Assembly (NCBI GenBank): GCA_003554945.1
Contig: PWHN01000009.1
Span: 1 to 56,494, forward strand
DNA length: 56,494 nucleotides
From: a bacterium
Lineage (GTDB): Bacteria; T1Sed10-126
Direction: 5' to 3'
The notes beneath the pieces are model-generated. The model was not told where the DNA came from and did not search any database. It worked only from the letters and a program-made list of their open reading frames with translations. The translations under genes were made by a program, and so were the position numbers. Positions 186 through 3,017 of this stretch are shown piece after piece. Position 1 is the first letter of the stretch. Every line of letters starts with the position of its first letter.

Positions 186-428
186 CTACTCTTCTTCCTC
201 TTTTGAACGCTGGATCAATCGATCCTGGAGGTCTCTAACCCGTTCACGCCGTTCCTCCTCAATATCGGGCCGAAGTTCAAAATCAATCTTTAGCGCCGCT
301 CCCTCGTGAACTTCCGGCAGCAGTTCGACCGGGAAATCAAAAGTATAACGTGACTCAACAAACTCAAGCACAGCCTTGTCACCGACTATTCTGTCAACTA
401 TGGCTATCAATGACTTTTGTTCACTCAC
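186..428 (-). CDS. DUF3006-family small acidic protein
   Basis: An 80-residue protein with the DUF3006 pattern: an N-terminal beta-rich part around IVDRIVGDKAVLEF followed by a charged helix ending in a run of Glu. The family is common in Firmicutes and has no established function. The GTG start lies inside the end of the exonuclease gene (overlap 421-428), with a good Shine-Dalgarno sequence (GGGGAGGTGA) just upstream, so translation is probably coupled. It is the last gene of a four-gene leftward operon. There is no signal peptide or membrane segment, so it is probably cytosolic. Confidence 0.75.
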   Translation of the reverse strand: MSEQKSLIAIVDRIVGDKAVLEFVESRYTFDFPVELLPEVHEGAALKIDFELRPDIEEERRERVRDLQDRLIQRSKEEEE

Positions 429-2202
429 TGTATTTCACCTCCCCTATTATTTGTAAAACCGGCTGCTGGTTTCCTATCAGACCAGCCGTTGGTATCCCCA
501 GCAGCTCCACTTCTGAATCTGTTTTTATCTCCTCAAGCTCCTGCGAAGAACAAAAAGCAACTGCAGTCAACCACTGGCTGCCATCAGCTACTGTCAACTG
601 ATAAAATTTACCGGCCGGGCTCTCTCTCAAACGACAGTTTATAACCCGGACTCCGGTGAGTTTAACAGTAAAGGGCGGGCTGTCAGCGTCGAAAGGCAAC
701 TCCGGGTAGATTTTCAGCAGACTGTTTAAGTTCAGCTCAGCATCGTAAACGTTTCCCGATTCTTCGATCCACTGCTCGTAATTTTTTTGAAAATAATCCG
801 ACTTACCATTACTGGAGGAAAAACCGGAAAAATCTTTATCCTCAGCGCTGTCGGTGAAAGAAAAAACTAATTTCCCCCGCTTCGCCCACTTCCGCCAGTG
901 CAGGTGGAGGTTAACCAGCAGATCAAGCGGCCAATTCCGGTAGCGCACCAGACCCGGTTCTGCCAGTGACTCAAGATTTTTTGGAAAGCGCCCCGGTTCT
1001 TCTTTCAGAATCCGCTGACCGTAACTGAAAAGATTTCGCTCATCAGCAGAAGAAAAGTCAGCAGCACTTAACATAGCGAGAGAGGCCAGTGGGGCCAGTG
1101 CGTCCAGCACTTCTCGCACCTGGCGAGGAGTTTTACAGCGGGCCAGTTTGTAAATTTCACCGGCGGCGCGAGCGTCATCCATCGCCCGGTGATGGCTCTC
1201 AAGTTCGACGCCGAGATACCCGGCGACATCGCTTAAACCGTAGCCCGGCAGACCGGGGAAAGATGACTGAGCCGCTCGCATCGAGTCGCCGGTTGAATTG
1301 TTCAGAGAGGCTCCACAATGTTTTTTTAGATGATATTTGAGGAAAGGTATGTCGAAGCCCTTGTTATGAGCAACTAACCGGTAATCTGAAAAAAAATCTT
1401 TGAACTGATTTAGCGCCTCTTCAGGCGCCGGTGCTCCCATGAGGTCTGAATTCTCGATCCCGGTCAAATCCGATATCCCGTCCGGGATGGTATCTACAGA
1501 GCCGACAAAAGATTCAAACTCTTCGATAACACAGCCGTTTCTGTATTTGACCGCTCCTATCTCAATAATTTCAGAAGTGCGTGGACTCTTGCCGGTTGTC
1601 TCAAGGTCAAAAGCTACAAAAGAAGGCAGCTCGGCCCCATAAATTTTACGACTTACCGCTTCACTTAGACGATAGGAAATAATCGGTAGAGAAATGTGAT
1701 CCTCCGATGGACAAACGACTTTAATATCCTCTGCCAGCGGCCCGTTTTGTGGTTCCGGGGTGATTAAGGCCGACTCCCCAGTTTTTATAGCGGACAGGCT
1801 TTCTTCAAGCTCGGTCGAACCATCAAGGAAAATAAGTCCGGGGCTGCTAAAATCATCAACGCATGAACAGCAGTGCACGCTACCGCCAAGTTTATTGAGG
1901 GCAAAACCAACCAGTGAGAGGGATAGATAGGCGGTGGCAGAATCTGCTGCGGCCAGATTAATCGTCTCACCACGACGCAGCAGGGGAACGAGAAACTGCG
2001 TCAGTTCAAGAAGCCCAACCAGTGGTTTATGAAAACGGGGCGGTTCATCACCGGAGGAAGCCTCCTGCTGCGGACTAAAATCTTCACCAGCGCGGCGCAG
2101 ATAGTAGCGAGCCAGCGGAAGCGAAAGCTCCTCGTCGACGACCAGACTTCTAAGCCTCTCCTCCGGCAGGTCGGCTTCAACCCAGTCGCGGGCGGAATTC
2201 AA
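421..2202 (-). CDS. RecJ-like protein with inserted DEDDh 3'-5' exonuclease domain
   Basis: 593 residues. Residues about 194-352 form a DEDDh exonuclease domain (DNA polymerase III epsilon/RNase T type): DLETTG (D199, E201), AHNKGFDIPF (D284) and HRAMDDA (H338, D343). The flanks resemble RecJ. Residues 84-115 line up with the DHH nucleotide-binding start but lack DYDxDG. SLPIISYRLSEAV (171-183) resembles the RecJ GVAFKLAxAL segment. LAPLASLAMLSAADFSSADE (369-388) resembles LDLVALGTVADVVPLxGEN. Residues 486-590 resemble the RecJ C-terminal OB fold. No DHH motif is visible, so the DHH active site appears lost and the inserted domain probably supplies catalysis. A role in DNA repair or processing is inferred. 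The TTG start overlaps the stop of the purine nucleoside phosphorylase gene. Confidence 0.75.
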   Translation of the reverse strand: MNSARDWVEADLPEERLRSLVVDEELSLPLARYYLRRAGEDFSPQQEASSGDEPPRFHKPLVGLLELTQFLVPLLRRGETINLAAADSATAYLSLSLVGFALNKLGGSVHCCSCVDDFSSPGLIFLDGSTELEESLSAIKTGESALITPEPQNGPLAEDIKVVCPSEDHISLPIISYRLSEAVSRKIYGAELPSFVAFDLETTGKSPRTSEIIEIGAVKYRNGCVIEEFESFVGSVDTIPDGISDLTGIENSDLMGAPAPEEALNQFKDFFSDYRLVAHNKGFDIPFLKYHLKKHCGASLNNSTGDSMRAAQSSFPGLPGYGLSDVAGYLGVELESHHRAMDDARAAGEIYKLARCKTPRQVREVLDALAPLASLAMLSAADFSSADERNLFSYGQRILKEEPGRFPKNLESLAEPGLVRYRNWPLDLLVNLHLHWRKWAKRGKLVFSFTDSAEDKDFSGFSSSNGKSDYFQKNYEQWIEESGNVYDAELNLNSLLKIYPELPFDADSPPFTVKLTGVRVINCRLRESPAGKFYQLTVADGSQWLTAVAFCSSQELEEIKTDSEVELLGIPTAGLIGNQQPVLQIIGEVKYSE

Positions 2203-3017
2203 AGCTCGGGTATGATCTCACGAACAAGAGTTTTAAACTTGCTTTTCGCCCGTTCGGTCGTTTCAATGACTTCTTTGTGGTCGAGCGGCTGATCCAGAAT
2301 ACCGGCACCCATATTGGTAATACAGGAGAGTCCGAGGACTTTCATGCCAACGTGATTAGCTGCTATCACTTCGGGCACGGTTGACATTCCGGCGAGGTCA
2401 CCGCCAATTCGTCGATACATTTCAACTGTAGCCGGGGTTTCATAAGATGGTCCCATGGAAGCAACGTAAACAGCTTCCTCCAGTGTTATACCCAACTGCT
2501 GCGCTTTTTGTCGCGCAAGATCCTGCAGATCAGTATCATAAGCGTAAGTCATGTCCACAAACTGTGGACCCACTTCCTCGTCGCTAACACCTATCAACGG
2601 GTTGTTCCCAAGAAAATTTATGTGATCAACCAGCAGAGCCAGGTTCCCGACAGAAAAGCGTTCGTTTACGGCACCACTTGCATTGGTCACCAGCATGGTT
2701 TCACAACCAATTCCTGCCATCACCTGCACAGGGAAAACAATTTCCTGGATCGGATGCCCCTCGTAGTAGTGGTAGCGTCCCTGCATAAGATAGACCTTCC
2801 GGCCCTCCAGCTCACCAAGCACAAGCTGGCCGGCATGGCCCTCCACCTTTGAGGCTAAAAAACCGGGAATATCTTCGTAAGATATAACCGTGGTATCCTC
2901 AACTTCATCACCGAGTTCGCCCAGACCCGAGCCCATAATCATGCCCAGCTCCGGCTGAAAATCTATCTCCTCTTCAAGAAAATTGACGGTCTTTTCAATT
3001 TTTTCTGATAGTTTCAT
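2199..3017 (-). CDS. punA: Purine nucleoside phosphorylase (inosine/guanosine type)
   Basis: A 272-residue protein of usual length for trimeric type-I purine nucleoside phosphorylase, which splits inosine and guanosine with phosphate to base plus ribose-1-phosphate. Diagnostic segments are visible: MGSGLGELGD near the N terminus (phosphate loop), GRYHYYEGHP, VTNASGAVN, the GPSYETPATVEMYR substrate motif, and SCITNMGAGI near the C terminus. The gene overlaps the GH94 gene upstream by four bases (ATGA) and the exonuclease gene downstream. The function is purine salvage in the cytosol. Nothing is missing from the family pattern. Confidence 0.93.
   Translation of the reverse strand: MKLSEKIEKTVNFLEEEIDFQPELGMIMGSGLGELGDEVEDTTVISYEDIPGFLASKVEGHAGQLVLGELEGRKVYLMQGRYHYYEGHPIQEIVFPVQVMAGIGCETMLVTNASGAVNERFSVGNLALLVDHINFLGNNPLIGVSDEEVGPQFVDMTYAYDTDLQDLARQKAQQLGITLEEAVYVASMGPSYETPATVEMYRRIGGDLAGMSTVPEVIAANHVGMKVLGLSCITNMGAGILDQPLDHKEVIETTERAKSKFKTLVREIIPEL

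Follow-up and report, generated by a model that had tools for sequence, protein, structure and literature searches.

RecFOR repair relies on RecJ as its standard 5'-3' nuclease, and PolC carries its DEDDh exonuclease inside its PHP domain. Relatives of RecJ that have lost their nuclease activity are known from archaea, where they are believed to play a structural role in replication complexes (PMC3307487), and in Cdc45 a separate domain (CID), placed between the inactive DHH domain and DHHA1, makes the contacts with MCM (PMC4873980). The RecJ-family protein RecJ2 of M. jannaschii has 3'-5' activity (PMC5615345), and DinG of S. aureus is a characterised fusion of a DEDDh domain and a helicase (PMC12345164). 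A RecJ that itself carries a DEDDh exonuclease has no published account that we could find in the literature searched, which leaves out most subscription journals.

The gene described here lies on the minus strand at positions 421–2202 of the window, that is, the whole 56,494-nucleotide stretch of DNA that was analysed. It is an open reading frame with a TTG start and encodes a degenerate RecJ of 593 residues with an inserted DEDDh exonuclease; on the plus strand the same interval is not open. The gene overlaps by 4 bp a gene for purine-nucleoside phosphorylase (PNP; 2199–3017, minus strand; PNP_UDP_1, E 9.4e-49), and a DUF3006 reading frame (186–428, minus strand) lies directly downstream. 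The only other genome examined from the window phylum, G001, has a 586-residue homologue with the same layout, and the gene order around it is identical, including the conserved DUF3006 gene.

A complete DEDDh exonuclease had been proposed at residues 194–352 (1147–1623, minus strand), and it is indeed there. Pfam finds RNase_T at residues 196–351 (111.9 bits, E 5.8e-32), the five catalytic residues D199, E201, D284, H338 and D343 are invariant in an alignment of 25 DEDDh proteins, and the domain is modelled confidently, at a pLDDT of about 91–98. Its best fold matches in the PDB are the exonucleases of DnaQ, PolC and DinG (in Foldseek, the comparison with 8h18 gave E 3.3e-13), and its best profile matches are domains of the PolC/DnaQ type.

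Where did the rest of the protein come from? It could be that this is simply a free-standing exonuclease of the common DnaQ type, flanked by unrelated domains that resemble RecJ by chance. Pfam gives no DHH or DHHA1 match on the window protein, and RecJ_OB, at residues 507–571, scores 12.8 bits, below the cut-off of 27. Single-sequence searches with the protein return DEDDh matches only, as does a scan of viral contigs with a two-sequence profile; a TIGR00644 search does not detect the protein, and a PF01368 profile search across the window's genome does not recover the gene. An HMM of ordinary RecJs gives 13.9 bits with the joined flanks of the G001 protein and about 1–2 bits with those of the window protein, which is too weak, and a profile-profile comparison was therefore needed. 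For this, a RecJ profile built from 21 ordinary RecJs was aligned by hhalign with a flank profile made of two sequences, the window protein and its G001 homologue. The joined flanks aligned colinearly with RecJ, starting at its residue 5 and reaching the OB fold, with a score of 57.3 (probability 90.9). The N-flank alone scored 41.9 and the C-flank alone 40.0, and the probabilities were 56–91%, for a flank profile of only two sequences. Column-shuffled controls reached at most 21.6 for the joined flanks and 23.2 overall; for three pairs of unrelated proteins encoded at the same loci, the highest score was 26.3. The flanks are thus decayed RecJ, homologous at both ends and in the landmark order that the first-pass annotation had read from them. 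Chance likeness is very improbable, since both flanks align so far above the shuffled and unrelated controls, and since proteins with an intact DHH site have the identical layout and operon.

The decay is uneven. The N-lobe, or DHH domain (residues 1–190; 1633–2202, minus strand), aligns with RecJ profile residues 5–213, but both of its signature motifs are gone, as had been claimed. In the profile-profile alignment, RecJ motif I (I-x-GDYDxDG) falls on residues 83–91, LAAADSATA (1930–1956, minus strand), where DYDxDG is matched by A86-D-S88-A-T90-A and all three aspartates are replaced; even careful alignment yields only AADSATA there. The DHH motif falls on P149-E150-P151 (1750–1758, minus strand). 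(An apparent "DHH" in the G001 protein was rejected as a DHH motif, since it belongs to the "DHHRALADA" of the DEDDh domain.) After the exonuclease comes a linker, residues 353–402 (997–1146, minus strand), which in the HMM alignment matches the L-x-PLAALAAVADMMPLxxENR...GL segment of the RecJ-DEDDh proteins described below. DHHA1 is eroded or deleted: the region between linker and OB fold (residues 403–480; 763–996, minus strand) is only about 80 residues long, has no DHHA1 match and lacks the GGH motif, so the idea that the whole RecJ scaffold had been retained does not hold. The C-terminal segment (residues 481–593; 424–762, minus strand) is RecJ_OB-like by its sub-threshold Pfam match, by hhalign and by its OB topology. 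In the predicted structure this segment forms an OB-like barrel of five strands, at a pLDDT of about 62, but its structure matches are OB folds at large and not RecJ in particular; neither structure model shows the RecJ N-lobe confidently, since aligned rows were available for the exonuclease part only.

Intact relatives of this protein exist. Whether the query was the window protein or TIGR00644, the search led to one and the same gene in each of two genomes, G029 and G018. These genes encode full RecJs (748 and 756 residues; TIGR00644, 489 and 460 bits) in which a DEDDh insert directly follows the GVAFKLA helix and precedes LMPLAALAAVADMMPLxxENR. When 386 genomes were searched, ten full-length RecJ-DEDDh fusions were found, and family f106 added three more, for a total of 13 genomes in six families, none of them the window's. 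All 13 keep DEDHD, DxDxDG and DHH, and in the three fusions tested the Pfam order is DHH, RNase_T, DHHA1, RecJ_OB, with DHHA1 below the cut-off in the f106 member. The fusion is present in each of the three genomes examined from the phylum to which G029 belongs. The matches of the RecJ-DEDDh proteins to the A1 profile reach columns 401–408, covering the post-insert linker; a scan of viral contigs with the profile of the intact fusions found no relatives. In the window protein the DEDDh domain sits, as in these fusions, after the DHH domain and before the LDLVALGTVADVV segment, and alignment to them confirms the insertion point that had been suggested, between the GVAFKLA helix and that segment.

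The fusions also share a genomic setting. PNP adjoins the fusion gene in 11 of the 13 genomes (f18 being the exception), and f106 fusions overlap their PNP just as the window gene does. Other frequent neighbors, identified by sequence similarity, are pyrimidine-nucleoside phosphorylase (PyNP), phosphopentomutase or an MTAP-like phosphorylase. Among 39 loci of ordinary RecJs, none had PNP, PyNP or deoB within similar flanks, and one had an MTAP-like gene. This setting suggests a link between the RecJ-DEDDh exonuclease and nucleoside recycling. Both intact and half-lost RecJ-DEDDh genes were seen in nucleoside-salvage operons with deoB, PNP, PyNP or MTAP-like genes (L178, L180–L186, L189, L191 and L192).

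The window protein thus probably descends from a two-nuclease RecJ whose DHH side was lost, leaving the DEDDh 3'-5' exonuclease. In a first step, a RecJ that was still functional would have gained a DEDDh domain of the DnaQ/PolC type, placed after its DHH domain and before the inter-domain helices; later, in the window phylum, the 5'-3' DHH site and most of DHHA1 would have decayed. What remained would be a 3'-5' exonuclease with a non-catalytic, DHH-derived lobe on one side and a RecJ OB fold on the other. This order of events is the most likely one because the DEDDh domain coexists with intact DHH, DHHA1 and OB domains in 13 genomes. The first-pass annotation had proposed that DHH was traded for DEDDh, with a reversal of polarity. 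The DHH site is lost and a DEDDh domain is present, but the exchange does not appear to have been made directly, in one step, since those 13 genomes keep both sites. Similarly, a 3'-5' activity has probably taken the place of a 5'-3' one, but this is better put as the loss of one of two nucleases.

Alternatively, the window phylum may have had a DEDDh insertion of its own, into a RecJ that was possibly dead already, and the intact fusions would then be convergent; this would bring the event closer to the proposed trade. In the tree of DEDDh domains, the window protein is not joined to the intact fusions: it and its homologue stand apart from them, with PolC exonucleases as their nearest neighbors by path. 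However, the backbone of this tree is weak, the fork that separates the pair included (45/71), and a single clade of all RecJ-borne DEDDh domains, window included, is absent from the tree and yet not rejected (AU p 0.30). The insertion point, the post-insert linker and the PNP operon are, on the other hand, all shared, with PNP found at none of the 39 ordinary RecJ loci. Common descent is the simplest reading of these shared features, and a separate insertion seems unlikely.

Does the window phylum have another RecJ? No chromosomal RecJ was found in either of its genomes, the window's own (G000) and G001, which are 93.5% and 91% complete, and the absence is likely to be real. A search for a normal RecJ elsewhere in the genome had been proposed, and the sole ordinary RecJ match (308 bits) lies on a phage contig, C2 of G000. 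The match of this gene to phrog_2484, a RecJ-like exonuclease of phages, scores 511 bits, and the neighboring genes are of phage type: a primase, a methyltransferase, a PolIII-type polymerase and the start of a ribonucleotide reductase. It was rejected as a host RecJ on these grounds; the contig (L173:1–8183) is a phage contig that was binned with the window's genome. The other DHH proteins are of about 330, 470 and 890 residues. A DHH phosphoesterase of 463–466 residues, with SHDDPDGV in both copies, adjoins the intact fusion (L183:4636–6948) in G068 (L183:7208–8605, plus strand); the copy in the window's genome is on a separate contig (L075:1408–2799, plus strand). RecO is present in G000 and G001; it thus occurs in genomes in which no chromosomal RecJ nuclease was found.

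Loss of one of the two sites is not confined to the window phylum. The DEDDh domain has been kept and the DHH site lost in the window phylum (G000 and G001) and in f133 (G133 and G270), which belongs to another phylum, and DHH has been kept and the DEDDh residues lost in the families f116 (G116, G381 and G253) and f56 (G199 and G331). The f133 proteins (L168:2889–4517 and L169:900–2519, both minus strand) have 540–543 residues, with an intact DEDDh domain and a RecJ-like N-lobe without DHH motifs; their genomes additionally give ordinary RecJ matches. Against RecJ, the f133 N-lobe scores 39.5 (control 22.9) and the C-flank 23.9 (control 23.2), and only the N-lobe is supported as RecJ-like, because the C-flank is at control level. 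The opposite state, an intact-DHH RecJ in which the inserted DEDDh domain has decayed, is seen at L189:2751–4967 and L191:4387–6366 (plus strand), L192:4217–6232 (minus strand) and L193:4317–6329 (plus strand).

Three genomes (G039, G184 and G345) encode UvrD-type helicases that also contain a DHH-like N-lobe and, after it, an intact DEDDh domain. In these proteins (L172:3586–6720, L170:3027–6077 and L175:923–3904, all minus strand) the dead DHH-like lobe and the DEDDh domain lie between UvrD_C segments. The segment that precedes the exonuclease scores 43.1 against the RecJ DHH domain (shuffles at most 18.7). A RecJ origin was rejected for the segment after the exonuclease, which scores 14.9 and does not match RecJ, and only the N-lobe is therefore claimed to be DHH-derived. 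The window protein's arrangement had been put forward as undescribed, but it is not unique: the f133 and UvrD copies likewise pair a dead DHH lobe with a DEDDh domain. Conceivably, the pair is a portable bacterial exonuclease cassette, derived from the two-polarity RecJ, whose dead lobe cradles 3' ends and guides them to the DEDDh site, and which replaced RecJ in whole phyla and moved into UvrD helicases, a Cdc45-like reuse with a nuclease as the insert; this broader idea is speculative.

What might such a protein do? Judged by its domains, the window protein is most likely an OB-tethered 3'-5' exonuclease, and its 5'-3' exonuclease activity on single-stranded DNA is predicted to be absent from the loss of catalytic residues. 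The DEDDh site would trim single-stranded 3' ends, with the strand bound by the OB fold and perhaps also by the dead lobe, and the released nucleotides would feed nucleoside salvage or DNA turnover, a destination suggested by the linkage to PNP. The dead lobe may instead be structural, as in Cdc45: it would bind a partner in repair or replication, with the DEDDh site acting on ends presented by the complex. This is compatible with descent from a two-nuclease RecJ and differs only on the job of the lobe. There are precedents for it in the inactivated archaeal homologues, thought to be structural in replication complexes (PMC3307487), and in Cdc45, where the foreign domain between DHH and DHHA1 contacts MCM (PMC4873980); the UvrD helicases likewise hold a dead DHH lobe together with a DEDDh domain, and RecO is found in both window-phylum genomes. 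The flanks of the window protein have also remained open and colinear in two genera, which argues against their being completely useless. However, they have diverged faster than the exonuclease (23–31% identity between the window and G001 proteins, against 56%), which fits relaxed constraint, and there is no adjacent partner gene, the neighbors being PNP and DUF3006. A structural lobe is thus possible but doubtful.

A RecJ lineage thus appears to have joined a 3'-5' to a 5'-3' exonuclease in one chain and then to have lost either, phylum by phylum. The intact, half-lost and lost forms are available for testing what polarity and the DHH scaffold each contribute, and the loss in the window phylum is a bacterial counterpart of the inactivation from which Cdc45 arose. 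The closest relatives are the 13 RecJ-DEDDh fusions, which have the insertion point, post-insert linker, DEDDh site and PNP operon of the window protein but keep DxDxDG, DHH and DHHA1, all three of which it has lost. Bacterial RecJ (TIGR00644; DHH, DHHA1, OB) shares with it the order of N-lobe, linker and OB fold; compared with RecJ, the window protein lacks the DHH-site residues and DHHA1 and has an extra DEDDh domain. M. jannaschii RecJ2 is likewise of the RecJ family, but its 3'-5' activity is attributed to its DHH site, because no DEDDh domain has been reported for it, whereas in the window protein this polarity is only predicted, from a separate DEDDh domain. PolC DNA polymerase III and S. 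aureus DinG also join a DEDDh domain of the same type to another enzyme, but there the carrier is a polymerase or a helicase, and here it is a dead RecJ. An inactive DHH domain is common to the window protein, Cdc45 and the inactivated archaeal RecJ homologues, from which it differs in being bacterial and in its eroded DHHA1; and where Cdc45 has an extra domain between DHH and DHHA1, the extra domain of the window protein is the nuclease itself.
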